A DNA stretch of 64,000 bases from Flavobacteriales bacterium (lineage in GTDB: Bacteria; Bacteroidota; Bacteroidia; Flavobacteriales_G; JALEGO01). The translations under genes and the position numbers were made by a program. The notes under the pieces were generated by a model. That model was not told the DNA's origin. It worked only from the letters and a program-made list of their open reading frames with translations, and searched no databases. Where the stretch lies: positions 1 to 64,000 of the forward strand of contig JAHDCS010000005.1 in the NCBI GenBank assembly GCA_020629755.1, written 5' to 3'. Shown piece after piece: positions 28,048 to 61,500 of this stretch. Each line of letters begins with the position of its first letter. The first letter of the stretch is position 1.

Positions 28048-31000
28048 TTATTTAATCACGCCTATGATTCTTCTCTCTATTACGCCATCGGCTTCTAAAG
28101 AGTAGACATAATATCCATTAGGCTGAATCTCTCCACTCATGTCTCTTCCATCCCAACCGTCTTGGTAGTTGTTGATCATCTTAACCAACTGACCTGACAT
28201 ATTGTAGATCTCAACATGGTAGTTTTTCATCTGAGGACCTCCTATAAACATGATGTCTTCAAATCCATCGTTGTTAGGTGAAAAAACCTGAACTGGCGAA
28301 CCAATCACACCTGGATTTCTTGGTTCAGTCATGTTTGGAGCTGTACAATCCTCTACATAAACAGTCACAGCAACATAATCACTCATACAACCTGTACTGT
28401 ACTCATCAAATACATAGTACGTCGTTGTTTGATCTGGGCAAACTGTGAAATCATCGCCAATCATAAGCGGACCACCTTGACCAGGCGTTGGATTTGGATA
28501 ATCAAACCAACAAATCGATCCAATGGTAGTACTAGTCGCGGTCATCGTTACACACTCATCTTCACATATAGTGTATTCTGTCTGACCTACCGGAGGATCT
28601 AACTCTCCAAGGTGAATTACTTTCACACAAATAAAGTTATCGCTATAACAAGAGCCGTTGGTTGCAAAACCATAGTAGAATATAGTCTCAATCGGCGCAT
28701 TTGTTGTAGGCTGTGGATCAAATGCAAACGGGTTTCCTACACCAACAAGCGTATTAGCATTTGGATACATCGACGTATGCCACTCAACCGTATACGGCGT
28801 ATTTGCTGTTAATGTAATCATCTCATTATGACATGGTCTAAACTCAAGCGTATCCTTAGCCAAGAATGGTGCTGGGCTTACTTGAACATTCACGGCCAAT
28901 GGCGCACCCTGACAGTTTGCACTGCTACCGGGTGTAAAGGCATAGTAGGTAGTGCTTGAAGAAGGACTAACGACAATCGAAGAACCTGTTCCGATAGGCG
29001 TACCTGTTCCGGCAGAGTTTGTATACCACTCAATAGATGAACTATTTGATGATGAAGCCGTTAAAGTAACTTGCTGGCCACCACAAGTTTGATATTGCGT
29101 CTGACCTGAAGGCGTATCGCCACCTGATCCGGCATTAAGATTAACTTGAGCGTAGTTTGGGCTATAGCAATCTCCATTGCTTGCAAACACATAGTAGGTC
29201 TGACTAGCACTTACATTATTAACAATGTAAGGATTGCCAACAAATACTGGAGTGCCATTATTAGATGGAGATGTAAACCAGTGTAAAGATCCTGTAGCAC
29301 CTGGAACAGTTAAATAAGCACTCTCTCCAGCACACACAAGTGAATTGTATGTAGAAGATGATATACTTGGTGCAGGACTCACCTCAACATTTACTTCAAT
29401 AGCAGGGCTCATACATCCGTTACCCAACTCATCTCTCACCCAAAATGTTCCATCTTGAGAAGGACAAATAGTATACGTACTACCTATGTAAATTGGCGTG
29501 GTAGCATTTGGGTCATCAAACCAGCAAATAAGACCGCCACTCTGACTTGTAGCCGTCATGTTTACACAAGAGTTAGCACAAACCTCATAGTTTGTTTGAT
29601 TAATAACAGGCACGTCTGGTGCATTTAAAACTGTAACATCAAACTCAACATAATCATTGCTCATACAAGCTCCTGAACCTGTATATCCGTAGTAGGTTGT
29701 ACTTGAAGTAGGAACAACCGGAATATTATTTCCAGTATACACTGGATTACCAGTTGGGTTTGGTTGCGTATACCAGCTAATGGTTCCGTTTGAAGTACCG
29801 CCTATTACTACTGTAGACCCTTCACATACAGTGGTCTCTATTAATTCTGGCTGAATAAATGGAGCTGGATCAACATTAACTTGAACTACTAATGGTGCCT
29901 GAGCACAAGTTCCTGAACCATTTACTGGCGTAAATGCATAATAAGTAGTTGTCGTACTTGGAGATATTGTAAAGGTAGACCCTACAAATACTGGGCTTCC
30001 TGATCCAGTTGGGTTGGTATACCACTCAATCATACTACTGTTAGAAGAAAGAGCACTAATCACCGTTTGATCACCAGCACAAATATTATACACGGTTTGT
30101 CCAGTAGGCGTATCTCCACCACTAGAAACATTAAGGTTTACTTGCGCATAGTTATCACTGTAGCATGATCCACCATAAGCAAACACATAGTAAGTAGCGT
30201 TTGTTGACACATTGGTCTGAGAATATGTTTGACCAGTAAACACAGGTGTAGAGTTTGTTGAAGGAGATGTAAACCAGTGTAACACACCGTTTGATCCAGG
30301 AACCATTAAGTTAACTGATTCTCCAGCACACACATCATAATCATATACTCCACTTACCATAGAAGGCGTTGGGTTAACCACAACATTTACTTGTATTGGA
30401 TCACTCATACATCCATTTCCTAGCTCATCGATCACCCAAAACGTAGTGTCTTGAGTAGGGCAAATATTATAAATGTTTCCTATAAACAAAGGAACCCCTG
30501 TTCCGTCAGGATTATCAAACCAGCAAATTAAACCTCCGTTCTGACCATATGCAGTCATATCTAAACAAGATCCAGCACAAATCTCAAAATTAGTTTGAGG
30601 AACTGTTGGCTCTCCTGGAGTGTTCAATAAAGTAACTTGATATAAAATAAACTCATCACTTATACATGATCCGGTCACTGTAAATCCATACAATTGCATT
30701 GTCGATGTCGGCGTAATAGTTAAATTATTACCCGTGTACACAGGTGATCCAGAAGCATTTGGATTATCATACCAATAGATCATTCCATTGGCATTTCCTG
30801 ATAATGTGATGGTATTGCCCGCACAAATTGTTTCTTGAACAGTATCCGCTTCAATGAAAGGCGTTAAAACAACATTAACTGTTACTTCTGTTGGCGCACT
30901 GATACACTGTGAATTACAGGTTGTAAATACATAGAACGTTGTAGGAATAGCATCGGTGTAGTTGAATGTATTACCAACAAATACAGGAGTTCCGTTTCCT

Positions 31001-32994
31001 GCAGCGTTATCATACCACTCTAAAGTACATCCTGCATCAGAAGTTAAAGTCATTTCAATTGCAGAATTTTTACAAATTGTATAACTAGTATTACCAGAAG
31101 GCACTGAAGGAATAGGATCTACTACTATGTTTACCACATAATATCCACCCAAAAAGCAGTTTCCATCATGCTGAAATGCATAATAAGTTTGGTTAGAACC
31201 AGGAGAAACAGATAAGATATCACTAGTACTCAATGTGTTTGCTGTGTTTGGATCAACTCCATCCATCCAAACTAAACCAGAACCTAACACACCATTTGAG
31301 TTAATATCAAACTGATCACCTTCACAAACCGTAAACGTAAATTCATTTACCATAGTAAGATCTGTAGGCACATCAGTAACCGTTACGTCTACTTGAAGAG
31401 CTCCATCATTACTTAAACAAGATCCATTATCTGCCATTGCTACAAAAAATGTACTCGCTGAAGGAGCTATAGTAATATCATTGCCTTGACCAACCATGTT
31501 GCCTTGATCATCGAACCATGTTACTCCAATAATAGAATTAGCAGATAAAGTAACACTATCACCTGGGCAAATTTCATAAGCCGCATCGCCTACAACATCT
31601 GCAGAGTAGTTTGTAACCTCAACTGTCACTACTAAAGCAGCATCGCTTGAACAGTTACCTACCTGAGCAAAGGCATAATAATTCGTTGTACTTGAAGGAT
31701 GCACCAAAATGCTATCCATTCCTAAAGATGTTGTGTTTTGATCATTAGATGCATACCAAAATACAACACCAGAACCTAAGACATGATCGGCAGTTAACCA
31801 AACAGAATCTCCATTACAAATTTCATATGACTCTTGAGCAATTGGCGTTTCAATTACTGGGTTTACGATAATTTCAGCCTGATAATATGCTTCTGAATAA
31901 CAAGTACCATTAAAGCAAAATGCATATAATGTTTGATTTTGACTTGGTGTTATTGAATAAGAAGATCCAACATGAATTGGTGTTCCTGAAGCTACAGGGT
32001 TATTAAACCAATGAATCTCACCGTTACAAGATAAATCCAGATCAATGGTTTCTCCAGCACATATTTCAAATGTATCTAAAGATGTGTTTGTTTGTGTAGA
32101 CACTGGTGTTGTAGGATAATCTAACACCTCAACCACAACCTCAACAGGTTGAGATAAACAACCATGAAATTCATATACATAATACGAAGTAGTGGTCTGT
32201 GGCGCAACCATCATGCAATTTTCGTAATCACTTGCACCTGAAGTTGATAAATATGGGCCATCGCCATTTGGATTATCGAACCATTGAATATAATACTTCC
32301 ACACTTCGTTATAGGCACAAAGCTCAACCGAATCACCAGCACAAATCTGATAATGCGTTTGAGGAACATCTAATAATACTCCAGGCTGAGGATTTGGTCT
32401 AATGTCTAAACCGTATGTACAGCCTCTTGCATCTGTAACAGTTCCAAAATAAATACCTGCTGTTAAATTATCTATAAAAAAGCTATCAGGTAAACTCTCA
32501 CCATATGTGGGGCTTACCCAGTCATACGTATAAGGAGCCAAACCTGTATGATCGTTTTCTCTAACAGAGATATAAGAACTAGAGTCATCCCCACATTCTA
32601 CATTAGAATAATTAATGGTAGGTTGATAAAAATTACACAATGAATCATTGGTATACACATCAAAAGAACATCCCATTAAAGAATATGTATGTGTACCTTG
32701 ATTGATTGGCGTACCGTAACCTTGAAATTCTGCAAGTTCATATAACCCTGATGAAGTCGCATTTAAGGTAATAGAATAATAAGCTCCATTAACTGTATCT
32801 GTTGACAGAGTATAAGTACCTGGTGCTGTCACGTTAAGATCTACAAAAAGGCGGTTACTTAGCCACGAACTTAACTCTAAGCCTTGTTCATGAACTCCTT
32901 TTTGATAAATAGCATCACAATCAATGCTAACACCCTGAGCTGTCAAATTAATAAAAGCAAAGAGAAACGGTATAAAAAATAGCTTTTTCATCAT
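28048..32994 (-). CDS. Giant Ig-like repeat surface protein with gliding-type (T9SS type B) C-terminus
   Basis: A 1648-residue exported protein. The signal peptide ends near INLTAQ, followed by about 200 residues with a choice of beta folds. Then come 16 Ig-like repeats of about 80 residues, each opening with a Cys motif such as YEICPGDSVTLSA or YDVCAGESVNLMV and ending with a second Cys (GSCYSD and similar). The C-terminus (VQVFSPNNDGFEDIMFIGG ... NGYYVYSL) matches the gliding motility-associated C-terminal domain. It is probable T9SS cargo and an adhesin. Met at 32991 is an alternative start. Confidence 0.9.
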   Translation of the reverse strand: MMKKLFFIPFLFAFINLTAQGVSIDCDAIYQKGVHEQGLELSSWLSNRLFVDLNVTAPGTYTLSTDTVNGAYYSITLNATSSGLYELAEFQGYGTPINQGTHTYSLMGCSFDVYTNDSLCNFYQPTINYSNVECGDDSSSYISVRENDHTGLAPYTYDWVSPTYGESLPDSFFIDNLTAGIYFGTVTDARGCTYGLDIRPNPQPGVLLDVPQTHYQICAGDSVELCAYNEVWKYYIQWFDNPNGDGPYLSTSGASDYENCMMVAPQTTTSYYVYEFHGCLSQPVEVVVEVLDYPTTPVSTQTNTSLDTFEICAGETIDLDLSCNGEIHWFNNPVASGTPIHVGSSYSITPSQNQTLYAFCFNGTCYSEAYYQAEIIVNPVIETPIAQESYEICNGDSVWLTADHVLGSGVVFWYASNDQNTTSLGMDSILVHPSSTTNYYAFAQVGNCSSDAALVVTVEVTNYSADVVGDAAYEICPGDSVTLSANSIIGVTWFDDQGNMVGQGNDITIAPSASTFFVAMADNGSCLSNDGALQVDVTVTDVPTDLTMVNEFTFTVCEGDQFDINSNGVLGSGLVWMDGVDPNTANTLSTSDILSVSPGSNQTYYAFQHDGNCFLGGYYVVNIVVDPIPSVPSGNTSYTICKNSAIEMTLTSDAGCTLEWYDNAAGNGTPVFVGNTFNYTDAIPTTFYVFTTCNSQCISAPTEVTVNVVLTPFIEADTVQETICAGNTITLSGNANGMIYWYDNPNASGSPVYTGNNLTITPTSTMQLYGFTVTGSCISDEFILYQVTLLNTPGEPTVPQTNFEICAGSCLDMTAYGQNGGLICWFDNPDGTGVPLFIGNIYNICPTQDTTFWVIDELGNGCMSDPIQVNVVVNPTPSMVSGVYDYDVCAGESVNLMVPGSNGVLHWFTSPSTNSTPVFTGQTYSQTNVSTNATYYVFAYGGSCYSDNYAQVNLNVSSGGDTPTGQTVYNICAGDQTVISALSSNSSMIEWYTNPTGSGSPVFVGSTFTISPSTTTTYYAFTPVNGSGTCAQAPLVVQVNVDPAPFIQPELIETTVCEGSTVVIGGTSNGTISWYTQPNPTGNPVYTGNNIPVVPTSSTTYYGYTGSGACMSNDYVEFDVTVLNAPDVPVINQTNYEVCANSCVNMTATSQSGGLICWFDDPNATTPIYIGSTYTICPSQDGTFWVRDELGNGCMSPAIEVNVEVSPAPSISSSTYNSLVCAGESAYLTVPGATGSLHWFTSPSNNGTPVFVGNPYIVNNVSASQTYYVFASNGDCYSPNYAQVNLNAGSGGDTPSGQTQYQTCGGQQVTLTASSSNSSSIEWYTNSAGTGTPIGTGSSIVVSPSSSTTYYAFTPGSSANCQGAPLAVNVQVSPAPFLAKDTLEFRPCHNEMITLTANTPYTVEWHTSMYPNANTLVGVGNPFAFDPQPTTNAPIETIFYYGFATNGSCYSDNFICVKVIHLGELDPPVGQTEYTICEDECVTMTATSTTIGSICWFDYPNPTPGQGGPLMIGDDFTVCPDQTTTYYVFDEYSTGCMSDYVAVTVYVEDCTAPNMTEPRNPGVIGSPVQVFSPNNDGFEDIMFIGGPQMKNYHVEIYNMSGQLVKMINNYQDGWDGRDMSGEIQPNGYYVYSLEADGVIERRIIGVIK
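28320..30840 (-). repeat. About 1-kb higher-order repeat inside the Ig-repeat gene
   Basis: The Ig-like domains recur in a fixed four-domain order. Domains 7-10 (about 29841-30840) are echoed by domains 11-14 (about 28851-29840), and domains 15-16 start a third, incomplete copy. Markers repeat about 1000 bp apart, for example SGGDTPTGQT / SGGDTPSGQT, GGLICWFDNPDG / GGLICWFDDPNA and HWFTSPS twice. Confidence 0.75.
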
Positions 32995-39679: not shown

Positions 39680-41977
39680 ATGAACTTAGTTATTGTAGAG
39701 TCGCCGGCTAAAGCCAAAACAATTGAAGGTTTTTTAGGGAAGGATTTTACAGTAAAATCAAGCTACGGACACGTACGTGATATTAAAAAGAAAGGCATTT
39801 CTATTGATATAGAAAATGATTTTTTACCCGATTACCAAATCCTTCCAGATAAAAAAGAGGTGGTTAAAGAACTCAAAGATCTTTCAAAAAAAGCATCTGT
39901 TGTTTGGCTTGCCACCGATGAAGATCGTGAAGGAGAGGCCATTTCATGGCACTTATTTGAAGCCTTAAAACTTAAAGAAGAAAACACCAAACGAATTGTA
40001 TTTAATGAAATTACCAAGTCTGCGATTTTAAAAGCCATTGAAAATCCTCGAAAAATTAACCAAGAATTGGTGAATGCCCAACAAGCCCGAAGAGTGCTTG
40101 ACCGTTTGGTCGGATTTGAATTATCGCCTGTACTTTGGCGAAAAGTTCGCCCGTCTCTTTCTGCTGGACGAGTACAGTCTGTGGCGGTGCGTTTGATTGC
40201 TGAGAGAGAAAATGAGATTGAGTCATTCATTCCAAGTTCTTTTTTTAAAACTACGGCTGTGTTCACCAATCAAGATGGGCAAGTTTTTAAAGCTGAATAC
40301 CATAAAAGATTAGAAGATAAATCACAAGCTACTAAGCTTTTAGAATCCTGTAAAGATCAAGTATTCACAGTCAATAGCTTAGAAAAAAAACCTTCAAAAA
40401 GAAAACCCACAGCGCCCTTTACCACCTCCACCCTTCAACAAGAAGCCAGCAGAAAACTTGGCTTCTCAGTCTCAAAAACCATGTTAGTCGCTCAAAAACT
40501 GTATGAAAGCGGTAAAATAACCTACATGCGTACCGATTCTGTCAATTTATCTGAAACCGCTATAGAAGGCGCCAAAAGCCACATTATTAACAGCTATGGC
40601 GAGAATTATTCTAATCCCACACAATACAAAGGCAAGGCAAAAGGAGCACAAGAAGCACACGAAGCCATTCGACCAGTGTATCTTGACAAACCAAACATAG
40701 AAGCAGAAGCAGATTTCATTCGTTTGTATGACTTAATTTTTAAGCGCACTATTGCTTCACAAATGGCTGAAGCAAAACTTGAAAAAACTACTGCTAAAAT
40801 AACAAGCAGCGCAGTTGATGGACACTTCACCGCTAAAGGTGAAATGATTGTATTTGATGGATTTTTAAAAGTCTACCAAGAATCTTTAGATATTGAAGAT
40901 TCGCAAGATCAATCTGGCATGCTCCCAAAACTTTCAGAAGGTGATCATATCGGATGCAATCAAATTAGTTCTGTAGAACGTTTCACAATGCCTCCCGCGA
41001 GATATACAGAGGCAAGTTTAGTTAAAAAGTTAGAAGAAAAAGGCATCGGTCGTCCTTCTACCTATGCGCCTACTATTTCTACAATTCAAAAAAGAGGTTA
41101 TGTAGTGAAAGAAAGTCGCGACGGAAAACAAAGAACCTACACTGAACTCATTCTTGAAAATTCGGCTCTATCATCCTCTGAAAAAACAGAAATAACAGGA
41201 GCCACTAAAAACAAACTCTTTCCAACAGATATCGGACGGGTGGTCAATGGTTTTTTGGTCAAAAACTTTGAGACCATTTTAGATTACAATTTTACTGCCA
41301 ATGTTGAAAAACAGTTCGATGATATCGCGTCTGGAGCATTAAAATGGCAAAAAATGATCGATGGCTTTTACAAGCCTTTCCATGTTAAGGTAGAAGACAC
41401 CCTTGAAAATGCAGAAGCCGCAAGAGGGCAAAAATTACTCGGACAAGACCCTAAAACTGGCAAAAATGTTTATGTAAAAATTGGCAAATACGGCCCTATT
41501 GTACAATTAGGCGAAACTGAATCTGAAGAAAAACCCAAATTTGCTAGTATTACTGGCGATTCAACACTCGGAAACATCACCCTTGAGCAAGCACTATCGC
41601 TTTTAGATTATCCCAAACATATTGGCTCCTATGAAGAAGAAGATATGCTGGCTGCCATTGGCAGGTTTGGCCCTTATGTGAAGTGGAAGGGCAAGTTCTT
41701 TTCTATAAAAGAACCATACCATATTGATTCATTAACTCAAGAAGAGTCTATAGAACTTATCAAAGCAAAATTAATTGAAGATGCTAAAAAGAATATTTTA
41801 AGCTTTGACTCTGAAGACCCACCTATTCTTGTCTTAAATGGCAAATACGGTCCTTATATAAAGCAAGGCAAAAAAAATTATAAAATCCCAAAAGATAAAA
41901 CCCCTGAAAAATTAACCTTAGAAGAGTGTAAAGAAATTATTGCGACTCCAAAAAAGCCCAGAAAAAAAAAGAAATAA
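39680..41977 (+). CDS. topA: DNA topoisomerase I
   Basis: A 765-residue type IA topoisomerase that relaxes negative supercoils. The TOPRIM motif is TDEDREGE (79-86) and the active-site tyrosine is Tyr282 in ITYMRTDSVNL. The C-terminal region has topo-I repeats (GPIVQLGE, GRFGPYVKWK, GKYGPYIKQG) instead of Cys4 zinc fingers, and ends in a very basic tail (KKPRKKKK). The next gene starts 6 bp downstream. Confidence 0.96.
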   Translation: MNLVIVESPAKAKTIEGFLGKDFTVKSSYGHVRDIKKKGISIDIENDFLPDYQILPDKKEVVKELKDLSKKASVVWLATDEDREGEAISWHLFEALKLKEENTKRIVFNEITKSAILKAIENPRKINQELVNAQQARRVLDRLVGFELSPVLWRKVRPSLSAGRVQSVAVRLIAERENEIESFIPSSFFKTTAVFTNQDGQVFKAEYHKRLEDKSQATKLLESCKDQVFTVNSLEKKPSKRKPTAPFTTSTLQQEASRKLGFSVSKTMLVAQKLYESGKITYMRTDSVNLSETAIEGAKSHIINSYGENYSNPTQYKGKAKGAQEAHEAIRPVYLDKPNIEAEADFIRLYDLIFKRTIASQMAEAKLEKTTAKITSSAVDGHFTAKGEMIVFDGFLKVYQESLDIEDSQDQSGMLPKLSEGDHIGCNQISSVERFTMPPARYTEASLVKKLEEKGIGRPSTYAPTISTIQKRGYVVKESRDGKQRTYTELILENSALSSSEKTEITGATKNKLFPTDIGRVVNGFLVKNFETILDYNFTANVEKQFDDIASGALKWQKMIDGFYKPFHVKVEDTLENAEAARGQKLLGQDPKTGKNVYVKIGKYGPIVQLGETESEEKPKFASITGDSTLGNITLEQALSLLDYPKHIGSYEEEDMLAAIGRFGPYVKWKGKFFSIKEPYHIDSLTQEESIELIKAKLIEDAKKNILSFDSEDPPILVLNGKYGPYIKQGKKNYKIPKDKTPEKLTLEECKEIIATPKKPRKKKK

Positions 41978-41983
41978 GCGCGG

Positions 41984-43150
41984 ATGGACATTGATATTTT
42001 CTTAAAACCAATAGATCATCAAAAAATAGAGATCAAAAAAAACAGCTTTGGCGATCTTATCTCTTCATATACCACACCGGGCGATATCCCCTCAATAGAA
42101 CAGGTCGATTTATGTATTATCGGTGTTCTTGAAGACAGAGGTACCATAAATAACAAAGGCTGCGCTTTAGCTCCTGATGAAATAAGGGCTCAACTCTACG
42201 CGCTTTATCCAAATTTTCATGCCGAAGCCAAGATTGCCGATTTAGGCAACATCCACCCTGGCAAAACATTATCTGACACCTACTTTGCAGTGAGCGAAGT
42301 GGTGAGCTATTTGCATCAAAACAATATTACAGTCATTATTTTAGGAGGGTCTCAAGACATTACCTTTGCTAATTATTTAGCCTATCAAAAACAAGAAAAA
42401 ATCATTAACCTGGTTTGCATTGATCGTAAACTAGACATTAATAATACCAAAGAGATTTGTGCTGATAATTTTGTAAATAAAATTATTTTGCATCAACCCA
42501 ACTTCTTATTCAACTTTTCAAACATTGGATTTCAAACCTATTTTGACTCCCAACAGTCAATTGATTTGATGCAAAAAATGCATTTTGATTTATTTAGACT
42601 TGGCGAGATTAATAAAGAAAACATAAAAGAAGTAGAGCCTGTATTGCGAAACACTGATATGGTATCTATCGATTTATCTGCTGTTCGGGCGTCTGATGCA
42701 CCAGCCACTGCCTTTTCTTCGCCCAATGGCTTGTATGGCGAAGAGCTCTGCCAACTTACATGGTATTGTGGGCTTTCAGATAAAGTGAGTAGTATTGGCT
42801 TTTACGAAACCAACATAACCTTAGACAAGAAAAAACAAAGCACACATTTAATCGCACAATCTATCTGGTATTTCATTTCTGGCTACTACAAACGCAGAAA
42901 AGAATCCCCCATAAACGACAAAGAAAACTTTTTGACATTTCGTGTGATCATAGAAGAAGGTGGTCAAGAAATTACCTTTTTAAAAAGTACAATCAGTGAC
43001 CGATGGTGGATGCAAGTGCCTTATCCAACTAACGAAGAACATCGTTATGCCTCTCAGCAATTGGTGCCTTGTTCTTACAGCGACTATCAAAAAGCTTGCA
43101 ATGAAGATATTCCCGAAAGATGGTGGAAAACATTTCAAAAACTTTTGTAA
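41984..43150 (+). CDS. Arginase-fold protein with missing metal ligands, topA-gldK locus
   Basis: 388 residues that align with the ureohydrolase (arginase/formimidoylglutamase) fold, but most manganese ligands differ. GGxHD is GGSQD (Gln124), DxHxD is DRKLD (Lys149), and SxDxD is SIDLS (Asp230 kept, Ser232). A C-terminal extension of about 120 residues ends ERWWKTFQKLL. It is probably not a normal metallohydrolase. Annotation pipelines often call such proteins formimidoylglutamase. It sits 6 bp after topA and just before porP-gldK, so a link to T9SS or gliding is possible but unproven. Confidence 0.72.
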   Translation: MDIDIFLKPIDHQKIEIKKNSFGDLISSYTTPGDIPSIEQVDLCIIGVLEDRGTINNKGCALAPDEIRAQLYALYPNFHAEAKIADLGNIHPGKTLSDTYFAVSEVVSYLHQNNITVIILGGSQDITFANYLAYQKQEKIINLVCIDRKLDINNTKEICADNFVNKIILHQPNFLFNFSNIGFQTYFDSQQSIDLMQKMHFDLFRLGEINKENIKEVEPVLRNTDMVSIDLSAVRASDAPATAFSSPNGLYGEELCQLTWYCGLSDKVSSIGFYETNITLDKKKQSTHLIAQSIWYFISGYYKRRKESPINDKENFLTFRVIIEEGGQEITFLKSTISDRWWMQVPYPTNEEHRYASQQLVPCSYSDYQKACNEDIPERWWKTFQKLL

Positions 43151-43292
43151 CCTTTAGTGGCCCTTCTTCGTTAGAAAGCTCTAAAAGCTGATTTTACAGC
43201 AATTTAAAAAACAAGTTAAATTTAATTTTCATAGTACTGTTTTTTTGTGTAATTTAGCCTAAATAAACTGTAGTATTTAAAACTCGGTATAA

Positions 43293-44270
43293 ATGAGAAA
43301 ATATATATCCTATCTATCTTTTGGTGTTTGTTCACTTTTGTTTTCTGTGGGGGGATTTGCCCAACAAGACCCACAATTTTCACAAAACATGTTCAATAGA
43401 CAGTTTCCTAACCCCGGTTTTGTAGGCAGTAAAAATGCCATTTGTGGTACATTATTGGCACGTCACCAATGGACGGGATTCAACGGTAAGCCAGAAACCT
43501 ATTTATTTACAGCACACATGCCTTTATCTATGGTGACTGATCTACCTATTGGGGCTGGTCTTTCAGTTTATAATGATGGACTGGGTAATTTTAATTACAC
43601 GGGGTTTAAAGCAGCTGGGTCTTACCGCTTTACATTGGGTGTTGGTATTTTAGGTGTAGGCGTTTCTCTAGGAATGGTTAATGTGAAGGTGAATAACGAT
43701 TGGTTAGCCTTGCAGGATGTTTCTTTAGACCCTACTATTCCTGATAATGGCGTAAATAAAATTACTTTTGATGCCGATTTAGGCGGATATTACGAAATTA
43801 AAGACAAGCTCTATGTAGGTCTTTCAATGCTTCACTTGCCAGCTACTACTCTTAAGAAGGATTTAGGTGCAGATCAATTTTCATATAAGGTAGCACGTCA
43901 CTACTACATTATGGCTGGGTACCAATACAATTTCCAGAGTTTAGACCTTTCACTTTTGCCATCCGCGTTTATTAAAACAGATGGCTCTTCTACTCAGATG
44001 GATTTTAACGTGATTGCCTTATACAAAAAAATGTTCTGGGCAGGGGCATCGTACCGTTTGCAAGATGCTATTGCACCAATGATTGGGGTACAAAAAGAAG
44101 GCTTAATCAAAAAAGGAACGCTTAAGGTAGGGTATTCATACGATGTAACAACTTCTACTTTAAAAAATTACAGCAATGGTTCTCATGAAATTATGGTTGG
44201 CTTTTGCTATGACATAGAAAAAGAAGAAAAAGCAGAAAAACGACAAATTATTCGCTTAATTGGTAGATAA
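43293..44270 (+). CDS. porP: PorP/SprF family T9SS outer-membrane protein
   Basis: A 325-residue beta-barrel protein with a signal peptide ending near GGFAQ, then the family opening QDPQFSQNMFNRQFPNPGFVGS and a C-terminal strand ending in a short basic tail (KRQIIRLIGR). PorP/SprF proteins help attach or export T9SS cargo. Its place directly ahead of gldK suggests it is the core-machine member; the second copy at 63598 is adhesin-linked. Confidence 0.88.
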   Translation: MRKYISYLSFGVCSLLFSVGGFAQQDPQFSQNMFNRQFPNPGFVGSKNAICGTLLARHQWTGFNGKPETYLFTAHMPLSMVTDLPIGAGLSVYNDGLGNFNYTGFKAAGSYRFTLGVGILGVGVSLGMVNVKVNNDWLALQDVSLDPTIPDNGVNKITFDADLGGYYEIKDKLYVGLSMLHLPATTLKKDLGADQFSYKVARHYYIMAGYQYNFQSLDLSLLPSAFIKTDGSSTQMDFNVIALYKKMFWAGASYRLQDAIAPMIGVQKEGLIKKGTLKVGYSYDVTTSTLKNYSNGSHEIMVGFCYDIEKEEKAEKRQIIRLIGR

Positions 44271-44300: not shown

Positions 44301-44328
44301 TAATATGTTAAATTCTAAGCTCAATACA

Positions 44329-45660
44329 ATGAATATCTATAAGCAAATTCAATTGCTAGTGGTTTTCTTTGTATCAGGATTTTTTACTTCTTGCGATAAT
44401 AGTGGGCAAGGGCAGTTAATTGGCGTTCAAGGAAGGCAAATGTGGTATCAACCAGATCCTTTTGGTACGCTTTACATTCCTATGGGGAGTTATGTCATGG
44501 GGCCTTCAGATCAAGATGTGGCTTTTGCGAGTACCACAAAATCAAAAACGGTTTCTATCCAAGCTTTTTACATGGATCAAACGGAAATCACTAACAATGA
44601 ATATCGTCAATTCGTGTACTATGTGAGAGACTCAATTATGAGACAAGTACTTGGCAATAGTGGATATGAAGAATTTTTAATCACAGAAGATTATTATGGA
44701 GAACCTCTAGAAATCCCTAAAATTAATTGGGATGAACGCATTGATTTTTCAGATCCTGAAATCATGCAGATTTTAGAACCTGAAATTTACGTGCCTTTCC
44801 ATGAACGATTTAAGGGAAGGAAAGAAGTAGATGCCCGAAAATTAGATTACAAGTACTCTTGGATAGACTATAAAGACGCAGCACGTAAATCTCCAACATC
44901 AAAAGGCGATAAATTAAGAGAAAGAGGTTTAGAAGATCGTTCTGTGTTTATCAAAGAGGACATTATTAATGTGTATCCAGACACTTTATGTTGGATTCAT
45001 GATTTCACTTACTCTTTTAATGAGCCAATGACTAAAATGTATTTTTCTCACCCGGCTTATGATGAATACCCTGTTGTTGGTGTATCCTGGAAACAAGCAC
45101 GTGCATTTTCAATTTGGAGAACTGATCTTATGAATGGTTTTTTAGCACAGGTAGGCAGTGCTGGTGTGCAAGATTTTAGATTGCCTACAGAATCTGAATG
45201 GGAATATGCCGCCAGAGGAGGTTTAGACCAGTCGCCTTATCCGTGGGGTGGTCCTTATATTAGAAACCTACAAGGGTGTTTCTTAGGTAACTTTAAACCT
45301 TTAAGAGGTAACTACGTTGATGATGGAGGTTTTCATACTGTGAAATCTACCTCATATTCACCAAATGATTATGGCTTATATTGTATGGCTGGTAACGTTG
45401 CGGAATGGACTAGTAATGCCTTTGATGAATCATCCTTTGATTTTGCACATGACTTAAACATGGATTATGTTTACGACGCAAAAGATGATGATGCTCCAGT
45501 ACTTAAAAGAAAAGTAATTCGTGGAGGATCATGGAAAGATGTCGGTTTTTACCTTCAAAATGGTACTAGAACGTATGAGTATCAAGATACCGGTAAGTGT
45601 TACATCGGCTTTAGAAATGTGATGACCTACATGGGGCGTTCTAAAGGAGACGATATTTAA
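44329..45660 (+). CDS. gldK: T9SS ring lipoprotein GldK
   Basis: 443 residues from ATG 44329; the frame also opens at 44305, adding eight residues ahead of the signal peptide. The lipobox is FFTSC. The body is a formylglycine-generating-enzyme (sulfatase-modifying) fold (DQTEITNNEYRQF, RLPTESEWEYAARGG, GNVAEWTSNAF, RGGSWKD). In the PorK/GldK family this fold is structural. GldK and GldN build the periplasmic ring under the outer membrane. Confidence 0.95.
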   Translation: MNIYKQIQLLVVFFVSGFFTSCDNSGQGQLIGVQGRQMWYQPDPFGTLYIPMGSYVMGPSDQDVAFASTTKSKTVSIQAFYMDQTEITNNEYRQFVYYVRDSIMRQVLGNSGYEEFLITEDYYGEPLEIPKINWDERIDFSDPEIMQILEPEIYVPFHERFKGRKEVDARKLDYKYSWIDYKDAARKSPTSKGDKLRERGLEDRSVFIKEDIINVYPDTLCWIHDFTYSFNEPMTKMYFSHPAYDEYPVVGVSWKQARAFSIWRTDLMNGFLAQVGSAGVQDFRLPTESEWEYAARGGLDQSPYPWGGPYIRNLQGCFLGNFKPLRGNYVDDGGFHTVKSTSYSPNDYGLYCMAGNVAEWTSNAFDESSFDFAHDLNMDYVYDAKDDDAPVLKRKVIRGGSWKDVGFYLQNGTRTYEYQDTGKCYIGFRNVMTYMGRSKGDDI

Positions 45661-46004
45661 TCAGGGTACCTGTACCTAATTGCTTTATAAGGCTTTTCAT
45701 TTATTTGTTTTTTTGTTCTGCCATCTATCTTAAGAGATAATTTAGCTCTAGCTTCATTCTTGGCTTGAATTTTCGTTCTTTTCTTCAAGGAAAAGGACAA
45801 AACATAAGGATAGAAGAAAATAACTTAAAAAAAGGGGTATATACAGATTTAAACTACTTGACAAAGCTTGCATAAATCCTGAATTCACAGGTCATAATTG
45901 GTAATTTAACTTTTTTTTGGCCGTATTTTTAAAAAAAATTGTATTGTTGTTGTAACCAATCAAAAGATTGGCCGTTATAGGTTAAAAATTTAAAACAAAA
46001 CATT
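45661..46004. other. 344-bp non-coding gap between gldK and gldL
   Basis: There is no ORF. A small hairpin (GGTAC-CT-GTACC) lies just after gldK and a CCAATC-AAAA-GATTGG hairpin (45956-45971) precedes gldL. The region is very AT-rich, with T and A runs. No exact TAnnTTTG promoter was found, but TATTGTTG differs by one base near 45942. Confidence 0.6.
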
Positions 46005-46844
46005 ATGTCAGCACATTCAGATAGCTTTTTTGCAAGTATGAAGTTTAAAAATATCATGAAGTATGTTTATGGTATTGGAGCAGCAGTAGTAATTTTAGGC
46101 GCATTATTTAAGATTATGCACTGGCCTGGAGCAGATATTATGCTTATCCTTGGATTAAGTACTGAAGCTGTCATCTTTATCATGTCTGTATTAGAACCCT
46201 TACATATTGAAAAAGAATGGGACTGGTCACTTGTATATCCACAATTAGAAATAGGAGACAGCTCTGAGATAGACGAATTGCCTATGGCTTCAGCCGCGCC
46301 TGCAATTGCGTCGTCAGGTGCTTCGACAGGTGTTTCTCAGCAATTAGATGAACTTTTAGAAGAGGCTAAAATAGGCCCAGAACTTATTGAAAGTCTTGGG
46401 CAAGGCTTTAGAAATTTGACAGATCAAACCTCAAAGTTGTCTGACATCACTTCTGCCTCTGATGATTTTACAACCAATCTAAAAAGCGCATCTAATAATG
46501 TGGCTTCTTTATCAGAAAGCTATGCAAATGCCGCCTCTTCTTTAGCAGATATAGGTATTTCACCCGAAGACGGCCAAGGCTATGGCGAACAAATGAGAAA
46601 AATTACTGACAATTTATCGCAGCTAAACTCAATGTATGAGATGCAACTCAAAGAAACTACTGACAATTTAAGCGCTGCAAGCAAAATGTCTGAAGGCGTA
46701 AGTGGTTTAATGAAAAATTTATCAGACTCTGTTGAAGACACTAAAAAATATAGAGAAAATATCTCTGAGCTAACTGGTAATTTGTCCGCATTAAATACCA
46801 TTTATGGCAATATGTTAAATGCCATGAATTTTAACAAAGGATAA
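46005..46844 (+). CDS. gldL: T9SS motor protein GldL
   Basis: 279 residues with two transmembrane helices (about 18-36 and 44-62). Lys36 (ALFKIMHW) and Glu54 (LSTEAVIF) correspond to the charged residues of the proton channel in known GldL. The loop between them is short (18 residues apart versus 22 in Flavobacterium johnsoniae GldL). The rest is a long cytoplasmic coiled-coil tail. With GldM it forms the inner-membrane motor. Confidence 0.95.
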   Translation: MSAHSDSFFASMKFKNIMKYVYGIGAAVVILGALFKIMHWPGADIMLILGLSTEAVIFIMSVLEPLHIEKEWDWSLVYPQLEIGDSSEIDELPMASAAPAIASSGASTGVSQQLDELLEEAKIGPELIESLGQGFRNLTDQTSKLSDITSASDDFTTNLKSASNNVASLSESYANAASSLADIGISPEDGQGYGEQMRKITDNLSQLNSMYEMQLKETTDNLSAASKMSEGVSGLMKNLSDSVEDTKKYRENISELTGNLSALNTIYGNMLNAMNFNKG

Positions 46845-46893
46845 TTGTACTAAACTCTAAGAAAGATTAACGTCTAACTAAAAACTAAAGACT

Positions 46894-48621
46894 ATGGCTG
46901 GTGGTAAAGAAACCCCACGGCAGAAAATGATCGGGATGATGTACCTGGTATTAACTGCCCTTTTAGCAATGAATGCCCCTAAAGAACTCATTAACTCCTT
47001 TGTAGTAGTAAATGAAGGTCTTGTTAAATCAAATGCTGGATTTGAGAGTAAAAACTCTCTCACTTTGAAGAGTTTTGAAAAAAGTGCCGCAGAAGATGAG
47101 GCATATCAAAAAGGGTTTCAAACAGCAAAATCTATTAAAGCTAAATCAAGTGCCTTGTACAAGCATATTGAAGAGTTAAAAAGGTATTTAATGATTAGAA
47201 CAAGCAAGAGTTCATTTGAAGTACCTGAAGGGTTATCTACTGAAAATCAGTCTGAGTTAACAAAATTCTTAATGGAGACCCCAGGGTCTGACACGACTTA
47301 CCTTCTCAAAAAGGTACTTGTTAAAGATAACTACGATGTGCCCACTTTTGAAATGATCGGTAGTGATATGGCTAATCCGCGCCCGGAGACCGATTATTAC
47401 AGTGCTTTAAATTTAAAAAAGAAAATACAAGAATTTAAAGACGTTGCTCTTAAAGATTTTGATAAAGGTAAAAATGCAGCACTTTTTAATACTATGGAAA
47501 AAGCATTTAGCTTTGAAGATGTTGTAGATCATGGTAAAACTATGCCCTGGGAAGTAGGGACCTTCTATCATTTGCCGCTTGCAGCAGTTATTACAAACTT
47601 ATCAAGAATGCAATTAGATGTACTTAATATTGAAGCAGATGCATTAAATGAACTGATGAAAGATATCGCAGGGCAAAGGTTTCAAGTTGATGAATTACAA
47701 GCAAGAGTGCTGCCCAACACAAATTACGTTATGATGGGTGATAGCTTTAAGGCTGATATCTTTGTGTCGGCTTCTAGTTCTGCCATTGTGCCTGAAGTAT
47801 ATCTCACAAAAGATAAAGGCATGATCGAACAGATTAATAAAAATGTTGAAGGTGTTGATGAGAGTAAATTAGAAAAAATAGCAAGTTCTGCCAATGGAGG
47901 TATTGTAACATATGGGCTCAAATCAAGCTCTGAGGGTGATTTTGAATGGGGTGGAATTGTTAAAGTTAAAAAACCAGATGGGTCGGGATACGATAAATAC
48001 CCAATAGCGCCTCAAAAATATACAGTTGCAAAAGGAAATTTAACTATTTCTCCAACAGCTATGAATGTGTTTTACAGAGGTTTACCTAATCCTGTTAAGA
48101 TCGCAGCACCAGGTGTAGCTTCAAATAAATTATCTTTGAAATGTTCTAATGCTATAAGTGTTACACCTAAAAACAAAAGTATGGGTGAATGGATTGTAAA
48201 ACCTGGAAAAGGAAAAAAATGCGAATGTACACTTATTGGTGAAGTTAATGGAAAATCTAAAAAATTCGGGCCAGCAGGTTTTAGGGTTAAAAATGTGCCA
48301 AAACCAGAAGCTAAATTTGCTGGCATAAAAGCGAGTGGGTCTACTTCTTTATCTAAAGTGAAAGCGGCTGCAGGTGTGATTGCGGATATGGGGGATTTCG
48401 ATTTTGCAGGAGCTAAGTTTAAGGTGGTTAGTTTTACCGTATCAACTATATATAAGGGACAACCTGTTGAGAAAAAAGTAAAAGGCAATAGAGTTACGTC
48501 TGATGCTAAAAAATTAATTGGTTCTCTGAAAAAAGGATCTAAGCTATACATAGAAGATGTTAAAGCAAAAGGGCCTAGCGGAATGGTAACTTTAGGCGGA
48601 ATTAAAATAAAAATATTATAA
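46894..48621 (+). CDS. gldM: T9SS motor stalk protein GldM
   Basis: A 575-residue protein, somewhat longer than the usual 510-530. It has the typical N-terminus (MAGGKETPRQKMIGMMYLVL) with one transmembrane helix (about 13-30), then periplasmic beta-sandwich domains reaching towards the GldKN ring. Two GldM helices sit inside the GldL pentamer. The gap after gldL is 49 bp. Confidence 0.95.
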   Translation: MAGGKETPRQKMIGMMYLVLTALLAMNAPKELINSFVVVNEGLVKSNAGFESKNSLTLKSFEKSAAEDEAYQKGFQTAKSIKAKSSALYKHIEELKRYLMIRTSKSSFEVPEGLSTENQSELTKFLMETPGSDTTYLLKKVLVKDNYDVPTFEMIGSDMANPRPETDYYSALNLKKKIQEFKDVALKDFDKGKNAALFNTMEKAFSFEDVVDHGKTMPWEVGTFYHLPLAAVITNLSRMQLDVLNIEADALNELMKDIAGQRFQVDELQARVLPNTNYVMMGDSFKADIFVSASSSAIVPEVYLTKDKGMIEQINKNVEGVDESKLEKIASSANGGIVTYGLKSSSEGDFEWGGIVKVKKPDGSGYDKYPIAPQKYTVAKGNLTISPTAMNVFYRGLPNPVKIAAPGVASNKLSLKCSNAISVTPKNKSMGEWIVKPGKGKKCECTLIGEVNGKSKKFGPAGFRVKNVPKPEAKFAGIKASGSTSLSKVKAAAGVIADMGDFDFAGAKFKVVSFTVSTIYKGQPVEKKVKGNRVTSDAKKLIGSLKKGSKLYIEDVKAKGPSGMVTLGGIKIKIL

Positions 48622-48627
48622 TATCGT

Positions 48628-48635
48628 TATATTTG
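48628..48635 (+). promoter_or_regulatory. Internal -7 promoter element before gldN
   Basis: TATATTTG in the 38-bp gldM-gldN gap, 24 nt before ATG 48660. It suggests gldN can be transcribed apart from gldM. Confidence 0.45.
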
Positions 48636-48659
48636 TATAACAAGTTAAACTATTCTGCC

Positions 48660-49502
48660 ATGAAGTCATTTTTTGTTATACTTTTTAGTTGTTCAATTAT
48701 TGTTTCTTTTGCACAAGAAAGCACAGTCTTAGATGGTGTGTATGTCAAAGAAAATACCCCGCATAGAAAAGTAGTGCCCTACCCTCACTTAAGAGAAGCC
48801 GATGTAAATTGGTCTAAACGAATTTGGAGACAAATCGATTTAAAACAAAAAATGAATCATCCGCTATATTATCCTGAACAACCTTCGCAGGGTAAAAAAA
48901 GCTTGTTTGATGTGATCAAGGATGGTATTATGAAAGAAAACAACTTGACAGCTTATTATGTTGGAGATTTAGGAGACGATGACATGTTTACCAAAGAATT
49001 AACCCCTAACGAATTATTGGGTATTTTAAACGACTCCGTTACAAGTTATACAGAAGATCCTGATACAGGTGAAATGCTTGAGGTATCGACAGTAGAAGAA
49101 GTGACCTCTGATAAAATCACTCGTTATGAAATAAAAGAAGATTGGTTTTTTGACAAACAACGTTCTGTGATGGATGTGCGCATTGTGGGTATTTGCCCAC
49201 TTTTAGCTGACTATGATGAGTTTGGCGAATTTAAAGGCTACAAAAAACTATTTTGGGTGTACTTTCCAGAAGCAAGATATGTATTTGCCAATGCAGATGT
49301 ACACAATCGTTTTTCTGATTCTGAAAGAAGAACCTATGAAGATATCTTCTGGAAAAGACAATTTGCCAGCTATATTGTAAAAGAATCTAATCCTTATGAT
49401 CGTAGAATAAACGAATATAAAATTGGCATGGATGCCCTTTTAGAAGCAGAAAAAATTAAAGAAAATATCTTTAATTACGAACAAGATATGTGGCATTACT
49501 AA
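48660..49502 (+). CDS. gldN: T9SS ring protein GldN
   Basis: 280 residues from ATG 48660. The frame extends to TTG 48633, but that would put nine residues before the signal peptide. The signal peptide ends near VSFAQ. Conserved family sequence includes DVNWSKRIWRQIDLKQKMN and RIVGICPLLADYDE. It pairs with GldK in the periplasmic ring. A terminator follows. Confidence 0.94.
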   Translation: MKSFFVILFSCSIIVSFAQESTVLDGVYVKENTPHRKVVPYPHLREADVNWSKRIWRQIDLKQKMNHPLYYPEQPSQGKKSLFDVIKDGIMKENNLTAYYVGDLGDDDMFTKELTPNELLGILNDSVTSYTEDPDTGEMLEVSTVEEVTSDKITRYEIKEDWFFDKQRSVMDVRIVGICPLLADYDEFGEFKGYKKLFWVYFPEARYVFANADVHNRFSDSERRTYEDIFWKRQFASYIVKESNPYDRRINEYKIGMDALLEAEKIKENIFNYEQDMWHY

Positions 49503-53182: not shown

Positions 53183-53581
53183 TTAATGGCTGTGGTTATG
53201 CCCACCAGTACATTGCTGTTTCTTGGTTGGCTGCGCCTTTACATCAGCACAACATACTTTTTCGCAATCTGGTGCACAAGCCTTTTTATCAGCAGATTTT
53301 GAACAAGGTTTTTCACAACCTGGCTTGCAAGCTTTTTTGTCCTTAGCTCCTTCACAAGAAGCCTTATCTTTTTTAGCACAACAGTCTTTATCTCCTCCTT
53401 TTTTGCATTTTTTTGCATTGGCACACTTTTTGGCCTTTGCGTTATCACAACACTTCTTTTCACATCCTGGTTTACAGGCTTTGGTTTCTACTTTTTCTTT
53501 AGCGGCATCTACTGCTTCTTGAGCTTGGTACGAGAAGCTTAAACCAAACATCATCATTAATAAACAACATACATTTTTCAT
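53183..53581 (-). CDS. Small secreted Cys/Lys-rich protein, putative metal binder
   Basis: 132 residues with a signal peptide ending near YQAQ. The mature part is made of Lys/Ala/Cys-rich sequence with three related units (KACKPGCEKKCC, KACKPGCEKPCS, KACAPDCEKVCC) and other CC pairs. It ends HNHSH. The pattern resembles metal-binding proteins, but I recognise no named family. Cys may be disulfide-bonded outside the cytoplasm. The upstream region has no exact promoter match. Confidence 0.65.
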   Translation of the reverse strand: MKNVCCLLMMMFGLSFSYQAQEAVDAAKEKVETKACKPGCEKKCCDNAKAKKCANAKKCKKGGDKDCCAKKDKASCEGAKDKKACKPGCEKPCSKSADKKACAPDCEKVCCADVKAQPTKKQQCTGGHNHSH

Positions 53582-58501: not shown

Positions 58502-61500
58502 ATGTTAAAAAAAGGTTACATAATCGCCGTACTGGTGTTTTTATCTTGTGTTCAGACACTACAGGCTACACATATTGTAGGCGGTGCATTTGATTACCAA
58601 AAAATAGCCGATTCTACTTATGTGATTACCCTTAAATTGTACCGCGATTGTAGAGTTGACTCTGTGAATTCGCCTATTCCACTTCCGACAGTTGCCAATA
58701 TAAAAATACGAGGATTTTTAGGTGCTGATGTAGGCAAAGACATCCAAATTCCTAGAATTTCGATAGGCGAAGTTGATCCGGTGGTAGATACTTGTGTGGT
58801 ACAACCCAATATATGTGTACAAGAAGGCATTTATAGAGATACTATTTATGGCATTGACCCCAGACAAGGGCATCATGTATATTATCAGTTGTGCTGTAGA
58901 AATTCTACCATATTAAATGTGGTAAACCCTTTAGATGCCGGCGAGAGTTTTTACACCTATATTTCGCCCGATACCCTTTTTTATCCTAAGGTTTCTGAAC
59001 GTTTAATCTGGTTTGAAAATTTTGATTTAGCAGATAGTTTAGACAGTGATAATGGCAGCACTGCATGGAGCACAACGTCTTCTTCAGGTTCAAATGTTTT
59101 TGGCGGAACTTTAGACGGTAAGTTTTGTGTGTCTGATGCAGATGGTCCTTATACACTTACAACTGAATATGTCGATATTTCAGCGCATAGCTCAGTTGAT
59201 TTACAAGTTACTTTATTTGAAGAAGGCGGGCTTGAATCAAGCGATCAAATTGAAGTGTTTTATAATTTAAATGGTTTGGATGGCGTTGATTACCCTTTTG
59301 ATGTCAATGATTTTGTACAGGACGACTTTACTCCTGGATTAACCGCATATGCCGATAATGTTTCGGGGCTTAGTGTACGGGTTAAAGTGGTAATAGAAAA
59401 TAATTCACCCCTAGAAATGCATTGCATTGATAACATCAAAATTATTTCGCCAGATACGGCAAGTTATGCCCTTGGAGATAACAGTAGTCCTGCCTTTGTG
59501 AATACGCCTCCGATTTTTGTATGCCTACAAGAAACGCTAGAATTTGATAATTCTGCCATAGATGCAGACGGAGACTCTTTAGTCTATAGTTTTTACACCC
59601 CTTACGATGCAAGAAATCCGGCAGATGCTGATTTTGAAGATTATATACCTACCTATTCTGTAGACGATCAAATTATTTTTGACACCATCCCTTGGGTCAC
59701 TGGATTTGATGCCAACAATCCCTTGGGGCCATCAGGCATTTCACTTAATGCCAATACTGGATTGCTCACGATAAGCCCTCCAAATTTAGGACAATACGTT
59801 GTGGGTGTTCGGGTGGATGAATATCGAGACGGACGCCTGATTGGGTACACGGTTCGTGATTTTCAATTTAACGTAGTCTATTGCCCGCCTATCGCTGAGG
59901 CTATGATCAATGATTCTACCTCTTGCGCCAATAGAGCCACCATTTTTCTTGAAAGTGAGGATGCTGCAAAAAACTACTGGTGGGATTTTGGTGATCCGAC
60001 CACCAATGCGGATACCTCTATTATCAAGTCCCCTACTTATGCCTATGATGCTGGAGGCAATTATACCGTTACCCTAATTACAAACCCTAATACGGCCTGC
60101 GCAGACACGATGACAAAAAACTTGGCGATAAAATCTATAGATGCTGATTTTGGATTTGGCTCTTCGTTTTGTCAAAACGAAACCGTACTATTTAAAGACT
60201 CTACTGTTGTGTCTTCTAATAATGCTATTGTAAGTTGGACATGGGATTTTGGCAACGGATCCACATCCACCCAACAAAACCCAAGCTCAACCTACACCAC
60301 AGTAGGCACTTACCAAATAAAGCTCGTGGTTGAAGACCAAGAAGGATGTAAAGACTCTATCACTAAAAGCATTGTGGTTACACCAAGACCTATACTTACA
60401 GCAGCCAATGATTTTAATGCCTGTGTAAATGAAAATAAAATTACTTTATCGGCTACTGCGCAGCATTATGTATCGATTGATTGGAATTTAATCGGACCAG
60501 GCTATGGGGTATTTGTCTCTGAAAATAATTTAAGTACTGATTTTACTCTTAGCCCCTTAAACAATACTTTTAATGTAAGTAGCTTAAAATTTGAAGTGAT
60601 TGCCACAGGCAGTTGCGCCACAGTGAGAGATACCATTGAAGTGACCCTTAAAAAAGCACCAAGGCTTGATCTTTTTGGTGATACCACGATGTGTTATGGC
60701 GCCGACAGTATTTTAATTGCTCTTTCTCCAAGTGGAGGCACCTTGCCTTATCAGTACAATTGGAGTAATAACATCACATCCATTAGTCAGTATGTAGATG
60801 TAGGCTCTTATGTAGGCTGGGTTGAAGATGCAAATGGATGTCTCTCGCCAAAAGATTCTATTGTAATTGATCAGGTTCAGAATCAGACAACGGTGCAGAT
60901 ACATGCCGATTCAATTGTGTGTTTAAACAATGCGCCTTTTGACATTCACGCCTCTTATGCTCACACTGATGGCATTACCTGGTCAGCTGCCGGCACCATA
61001 GCACCTAGTAGTACAGATTCGGTGATTACTTATAACCCAACAGCAGCTGAGAGAGCTGCCCTTAGTTTTAGTATTCGCATTCAAACAGATCAAGACGCTT
61101 TAGGATGCCCTACGGCAAAAGATACTGCTGAGATTCAAATCAATAGGCTAATCGTATTAAATAAAGATTCTATTATTCCGCCTTGTTATGACAACGACGG
61201 ATTGGCGTATGTTCAGGTATCTGGAGGCACAAATCCATACCTCTACCAATGGGGCAGTTCTTCTAATAATCAGATTGGCGATACAGCCTTTAATTTAAGT
61301 GCCTCCTGGCATTATGTAACGGTTACTGACACTATTGGATGTAGCGTGGTAGATTCTTTTGATTTAAGAAATAACCCACTTGTGCTTGATATTACAGACA
61401 CTAGCGATGTAACCTGCTTTGATCAAGCAACTGGTAGCGCTACACTGGGCATATCAGAAGGTGTAGCCCCCTATTCTATTTTGTGGGATAGCCTTGCCGG

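Follow-up and report, generated by a model that had tools for sequence, protein, structure and literature searches.

Organization of the locus

The gene considered here lies in a stretch of 64 000 nucleotides from a Flavobacteriales bacterium, the whole of which is referred to below as the window. We call it pArg, a label coined in this analysis for the open reading frame 41984–43150 of the forward strand. It is preceded by topA and followed by a porP/sprF family gene and by gldK, gldL, gldM and gldN of the T9SS (table 1). An initial reading of the window made without database searches, hereafter the sequence-only reading, had noted the tight linkage of pArg to topA and its position ahead of porP–gldKLMN. 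Both observations hold: the gap between topA and pArg is 6 bp, the identity of TopA is confirmed by a model scoring over its cut-off, and the five downstream neighbours all exceed their NCBIfam cut-offs. Judging from the spacing, topA is the probable operon partner of pArg.

Table 1. Features of the pArg locus in the window. Residue counts refer to 142 distinct pArg members.
Feature	Position	Strand	Remarks
miaB	upstream of topA–pArg	−	opposite strand; NCBIfam model over cut-off
topA, type I DNA topoisomerase	39680..41977	+	TIGR01051, 699 bits (cut-off 456)
pArg, predicted ureohydrolase-fold pseudoenzyme	41984..43150	+	388 aa plus stop, ATG to TAA
Formimidoylglutamase-like ureohydrolase fold domain	42035..42901	+	residues ~18–306; AlphaFold2 and VIA
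Q124 in place of the first metal His (H101 equivalent)	42353..42355	+	Q in 130, H in 8, N in 4 of 142
D147, retained (D124 equivalent)	42422..42424	+	D in 138/142
K149 in place of the second metal His (H126 equivalent)	42428..42430	+	H in only 6/142
D151, retained (D128 equivalent)	42434..42436	+	D in 129/142
D230, retained (D232 equivalent)	42671..42673	+	D in 138/142
S232 in place of the last metal Asp (D234 equivalent)	42677..42679	+	D in only 2/142
Family-specific C-terminal module, RWW...VPCSY...PxxWW	42902..43147	+	residues 307–388
pArg–porP intergenic spacer	43151..43292	+	142 bp
porP/sprF family gene	43293..44270	+	TIGR03519 over cut-off
gldK, gldL, gldM, gldN	44305..49502	+	TIGR03525, TIGR03513, TIGR03517, TIGR03523, all over cut-off

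The pArg protein matches Pfam PF00491 with an E-value of 3.7e-21 (76.3 bits against a cut-off of 22). Its best NCBIfam model is TIGR01227 (hutG), at 94.6 bits below the cut-off of 229.15, and hutG matches at E up to 0.001 were obtained for all 28 members of the pArg alignment A1. The Pfam and NCBIfam scans contained no model specific to the pArg family; they returned the general Arginase family and hutG below its cut-off. The protein is probably cytosolic, because neither an N-terminal hydrophobic segment nor an export signal was seen in its sequence.

Fold and C-terminal module

An AlphaFold2 model of pArg computed from 28 sequences has a mean pLDDT of 90 and a pTM of 0.92. Its best VIA matches are the formiminoglutamases, with 4myn (Z 37.2, rmsd 2.1, 279 aligned residues, model range 18–305) and 3m1r (Z 36.5), and metformin hydrolase entries such as 8x3g are also listed; across the 50 entries listed Z ranges from 29 to 37, corresponding to an arginase-like alpha/beta fold. 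The model thereby bears out the proposal of the sequence-only reading that the ureohydrolase fold is kept. The VIA matches listed stop at residues 300–310, which leaves the C-terminal part of pArg outside them.

This part forms a module of its own, in which W341 is present in 141 and C363 in 140 of the 142 pArg members; at most three residues align to it in each of 20 HutG-like relatives. Modelled alone, as an 83-residue construct with 43 sequences, it reached a pLDDT of 82.6. Foldseek gave no match with E <1 for the isolated module and VIA nothing above Z 3.0, several PARP WGR-region chains at Z 2.1–3.0 falling inside the stated noise range; in a Pfam scan of 43 pArg members no family was matched by more than four of them. 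For an SH3-like nature of the module there are weak sequence echoes, spectrin SH3 at E 0.014 in a profile search of PDB sequences and SH3b_P2 at E 0.037 and 0.038 in two of four proteins, which structure does not bear out (best VIA Z 3.0). The absence of a confident match does not make the fold of the module a new one. Among the matches listed, the module may be confined to Bacteroidia.

The metal site

The pArg protein of the window keeps three of the six ligands of the binuclear centre. Positions 124, 149 and 232, which correspond to H101, H126 and D234 in human arginase I numbering, carry Gln, Lys and Ser, in agreement with the sequence-only reading, which had described the motifs GGSQD, DRKLD and SIDLS as altered and the His124, His149 and Asp232 equivalents as lost. 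Ligands were counted in 142 distinct members from 146 loci, identical proteins being collapsed; one of them (L146) is truncated where its contig stops. Three canonical ligands are present in 117 members, four in 12, two in 10, one in two and none in one, and no member among the 142 has five or six. The pattern of loss is not due to chance, because it recurs across 142 distinct members. In three distant members (L147, L148 and L149, families f24 and f26) a pocket Asp that other members retain is lost as well and parts of the C-terminal module remain, the alignment being uncertain there.

The altered motifs differ in weight. The losses in DRKLD and SIDLS are diagnostic: the equivalents of H126 and D234, together with E275, are kept in all 20 HutG-like relatives. 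The metal motifs of HutG are DxHxD and SxDxD. By contrast, GGSQD on its own is weak and was discarded as proof of inactivity, position 124 being His in 16 of these relatives and Asn in the other four. The solved formiminoglutamase of T. cruzi apparently also has Asn at the first-His position, as the entry title ‘N114H variant’ indicates. In the alignment, two of the 20 relatives depart from Asp at the D232 position and one does so at D128. The loss of site B throughout the family, the failure to reach the hutG cut-off and the retained fold give good sequence support to the pseudoenzyme proposed in the sequence-only reading.

Site A keeps three Asp residues in most members, where binding of a single metal or of a ligand is conceivable. 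The retention of D147, D230, D151 and mostly E275 goes beyond what a purely structural role would call for and counts against the non-catalytic reading that we prefer; altered catalysis is therefore possible. Such an enzyme would hold one metal at site A, through Q124, D147, D151 and D230, and catalyse a reaction other than ureohydrolysis. We consider this alternative unlikely, though worth keeping in view: the conservation of these four residues (table 1) and of E275 (121 of 142 members) and the occasional His at position 124 are in its favour, whereas hardly any member still has either of the site-B-specific ligands, position 149 varies much more than a catalytic residue would, and the distant L147–L149 appear, in their uncertain alignment, to do without D151 and yet the gene is kept.

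Relationship to formimidoylglutamase and other ureohydrolases

In a tree of 41 rows, 21 pArg and 20 HutG-like proteins are split with 100/100 support; L001, L002 and L147 were excluded from it and the other pArg rows thinned. An earlier tree with two far paralogues gave end branches of 4.5 and 5.9 and placed one of them, L001 (5.9), inside pArg; this canonical paralogue aligned badly with pArg members and was not used in the ligand alignment. The comparison with HutG-like relatives sets pArg apart as a separate group, the diagnostic ligands being kept in all 20 of them. Outside pArg itself, the profile of the family scores highest with four HutG-like proteins from beyond the class (L155–L158), whose metal sites are complete or nearly so.

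With HutG (TIGR01227; PDB 3m1r, 4mxr/2a0m) pArg shares the fold over residues ~18–306, at Z ~37, and the best NCBIfam model, and with the nearest HutG-like proteins similar GGxxD and SDAP-type loops. It differs from HutG in lacking the site-B ligands, in its extra C-terminal module, in its score below the cut-off and in its separate position in the tree; in place of the HutG metal motifs DxHxD and SxDxD it has DRKLD and SIDLS. These sequence relationships suggest that pArg descends from, or is sister to, the formimidoylglutamase HutG, as a long-separated relative that has lost site B. Seven of the Bacteroidia genomes examined (G002, G061, G088, G133, G187, G239 and G338) carry, besides pArg, a separate HutG-like gene with site-B ligands kept. 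That pArg is itself an ordinary active formimidoylglutamase, as the naming of the nearest family would suggest, is hardly credible: the place of hutG as best NCBIfam model and the hutG matches throughout alignment A1 speak for it, but the score of 94.6 bits against 229, the family-wide loss of ligands and the separate HutG-like genes all speak against it.

Ureohydrolase-like proteins without a metal cluster offer two comparisons. The arginase-like protein of Trypanosoma brucei is eukaryotic and of the arginase lineage, unlike pArg. It is described in PMC11271267 as lacking the Mn cluster (Hai et al. 2015, as cited there); on this description, it shares with pArg a metal-less ureohydrolase fold. 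PMC11271267 also presents MetCb as a metal-free ureohydrolase-fold pseudoenzyme, the non-catalytic subunit of the metformin hydrolase MetCaCb. MetCb resembles pArg, in which the fold is kept, the ligands are lost and the gene is under selection; it differs in that MetCb is paired with an active subunit, the heterohexamer of the two degrading metformin, whereas no active partner is encoded next to pArg, which also has the C-terminal module and occurs class-wide.

By analogy with MetCb and MetCa, pArg might assemble with a canonical ureohydrolase paralogue into a heterohexamer, as the subunit that lacks catalytic activity. The genome of the window encodes two PF00491 paralogues with canonical motifs, on other contigs than pArg. 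Counting this genome, 56 of 60 have at least one further PF00491 place, and completeness does not exceed 83% in any of the four that have none. MetCaCb itself is a precedent (PMC11271267). We nevertheless find this explanation improbable, as the paralogues are not beside pArg and are very distant from it, on the two long end branches mentioned above.

Distribution and selection

Of the 296 Bacteroidia genomes sampled, 279 contain a member of the pArg family: the C-terminal profile detects it in 275, and four more were recovered with the full profile (G071, G152, G219 and, as a fragment at the end of a contig, G444). Among relatives, own genome included, it is present in 59 of 60. GldM was found in 289 of the 296 class genomes at E up to 0.001, with 286 over the cut-off.

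Absence of pArg is relatively more frequent in genomes without GldM (five of seven, against 12 of 289 GldM-positive genomes). The five without pArg, GldM and GldL are G287, G295, G383, G435 and G516; three come from one family, one is of 1.2 Mb and one, G383, has SprA, so its lack of pArg and GldM may be an assembly gap. Twelve genomes contain GldM and GldL without pArg (G057, G247, G306, G413, G455, G472, G487, G541, G549, G554, G561 and G567). In G549 a contig begins inside porP, and the absence may again be an assembly gap; faint full-profile matches in G413 and G554 (E 2.7e-5 and 6.2e-5), in frames of ~300 aa, were taken as paralogues.

The converse situation, pArg in a genome lacking GldM, occurs in G381, where a contig ends just past pArg and a gap is probable, and in G505, which has neither GldM, GldL nor SprA_N. 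In the family of G505, pArg is present in 151 of 151 genomes and GldM in 143. The eight GldM-negative genomes (G505, G583, G655, G670, G676, G683, G689 and G701) all contain pArg; its open frames there measure 394–412 aa. SprA_N was tried as a second marker of the T9SS; among these eight it is found in G676 and, as a partial match, in G701. It proved unsuitable: the GldM-positive controls G061, G607, G665 and G598 also lack it, and T9SS status in this family therefore rests mainly on GldM. These four controls, which belong to family f22 and to the two genera chiefly involved, may have lost part of the T9SS or possess a translocon that has diverged.

The median dN/dS of pArg is 0.04 over 39 pairs (80–98% identity, dS <2), which share sequences and are thus non-independent; pArg is under strong purifying selection. 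Residues conserved specifically in pArg, as determined from 138 members after three divergent sequences and a short one had been set aside, include R205, G207, E218, P219, R222, C256, G272 and W295 in the fold part and F332, R340, W341, W342, C363, Y368, A371 and P377 in the module.

Linkage with topA and the T9SS genes

Gene neighbourhoods were compared in the best 80 of 585 confirmed loci, a selection biased to near relatives. In these, topA lies directly upstream of pArg in 56 of 74 loci with enough flank and is not adjacent in the other 18; porP or gldK adjoins pArg downstream in 38 of 68 that have enough flank on that side. The topA–pArg gap has a median of 37 bp over 57 loci, with extremes of −1 and 313 bp; the pArg–porP spacer, measured to approximate starts, ranges from 109 to 433 bp in all 40 loci with porP downstream. 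When the 62 loci evaluable on both sides are classified, 33 have both topA and the T9SS genes, 14 topA only, none the T9SS genes only and 15 neither. Since T9SS-only loci number 0 of 62, T9SS adjacency appears to be nested within the topA–pArg linkage. In this set of the best 80 of 585 loci, topA is the more persistent neighbour of pArg.

The order miaB, topA, pArg, gldK, gldL, gldM, gldN is found in G263, which we take to be a Flavobacterium-like genome from its two adjacent gldN-like copies. No topA was found in the stretches read, some of them short, of T9SS loci from the 12 genomes without pArg. In ten loci (L070, L076, L085, L091, L095, L097, L107, L108, L109 and L126) related genes lie on the opposite strand just downstream of pArg; five of these loci are titled Bacteroidales, and in L085, the one scanned, the gene is ruvC.

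In the phylum sample, pArg and gldM are within 5 kb of each other in 31 of 68 Bacteroidia genomes containing both (G000 uncounted), comprising 29 of 29 in family f25 and one each in f21 and f27. In the remaining 37 they are far apart or on other contigs, several of these cases being different contigs of drafts. In G322 the pArg gene is broken up among small contigs, so that its linkage cannot be judged.

A Bacteroidetes-type promoter consensus occurs in full in five of 36 pArg–porP spacers, against 0.45 expected from simple shuffles, in none of 36 regions upstream of pArg (0.14 expected) and, upstream of topA, in two of 32 (0.57 expected). The downstream element of the consensus, taken by itself, is enriched at all three places, with 12 pArg–porP spacers, nine regions upstream of pArg and 14 upstream of topA. 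The full consensus was not found in the 142-bp spacer of the window itself, and the counts are no more than suggestive. A sigma-70 promoter scan was uninformative.

The sequence-only reading had inferred from the position of the gene a possible structural, regulatory or binding role in secretion or gliding. The linkage is real, in the window as in the 31 genomes, but the role is unsupported as a general function, and adjacency as an argument for a dedicated T9SS function was ruled out as the main reading by the tests of absence, presence and linkage. Co-occurrence of pArg with the T9SS is not strict; a loose association is present. The sequence-only reading regarded missing linkage and co-occurrence as fatal to its proposal, and the unlinked genomes (37 of 68) go part of the way there. 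As a dedicated component or regulator of the T9SS or of gliding, pArg would be expected neither to be missing from the 12 GldM- and GldL-positive genomes (an assembly gap may explain one of these absences) nor to be kept in the eight genomes of one family without a GldM match; its adjacency to T9SS genes is never seen without adjacency to topA in the 62 evaluable loci (best 80 of 585), and the protein shows no export signal. Against this stand the adjoining porP or gldK in more than half of the evaluable loci among the best 80 of 585, the consistent proximity to gldM in f25 and the frequent lack of pArg where GldM is lacking. Overall we find no support for a dedicated role in the T9SS and rate it as improbable; a lineage-specific link is conceivable.

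Proposed function and significance

The reading that we favour, with somewhat more confidence than doubt, is that pArg is a cytosolic pseudoenzyme derived from HutG, a binding or scaffold protein or a ligand-responsive adaptor, often transcribed with topA and independent of the T9SS. Without the binuclear cluster it would hydrolyse neither formiminoglutamate nor guanidines. The emptied pocket, with three acidic residues in most members, would be at most a site for a small ligand or a single metal, and the C-terminal RWW/VPCSY module may bind a partner; because of these two presumed properties, pArg could act as a scaffold or ligand-responsive adaptor. Judging by gene spacing, it would often be transcribed with topA, and the process that it serves would not require the T9SS. 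More speculatively, and with rather little confidence, loss of the metal site and gain of the module may have turned an enzyme of histidine catabolism into a ligand sensor or an adaptor with a housekeeping role connected to TopA or to chromosome maintenance; a small molecule would be bound in the emptied pocket.

Metal-free ureohydrolases as such are already known (PMC11271267); what is new is a class-wide family with a module of its own. Full-text searches, some of whose result lists were partly viewed, found nothing on the pArg family; those combining arginase-type names with gldK, porK–M, the T9SS or topoisomerase gave no paper except a report on a duck pathogen, listed for gldK and arginase. 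A protein carried by more than 90% of the Bacteroidia genomes sampled, which its nearest model would name formimidoylglutamase, can thus be corrected to a probable class-wide pseudoenzyme, and this finding weakens one T9SS candidate. The residues R340/W341/W342, C363 and the pocket Asp offer themselves for probing the conserved function.

Other features of the window

Several further genes of the window deserve mention. A 2153-aa protein encoded on the reverse strand (1987–8448) has FG-GAP repeats together with UnbV/ASPIC and DUF7619; a Por secretion tail is seen below threshold, and the protein is likely T9SS cargo. Very large repetitive proteins of 1648 and 1697 aa are encoded at 28048–32994 (−) and 58502–63595 (+); by eye, their ends resemble gliding-type C-terminal sorting signals, and they are possible T9SS type B cargo. 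A Cys/Lys-rich protein of 132 aa with no Pfam match, encoded at 53183–53581 (−), is a possible metal-binding protein.
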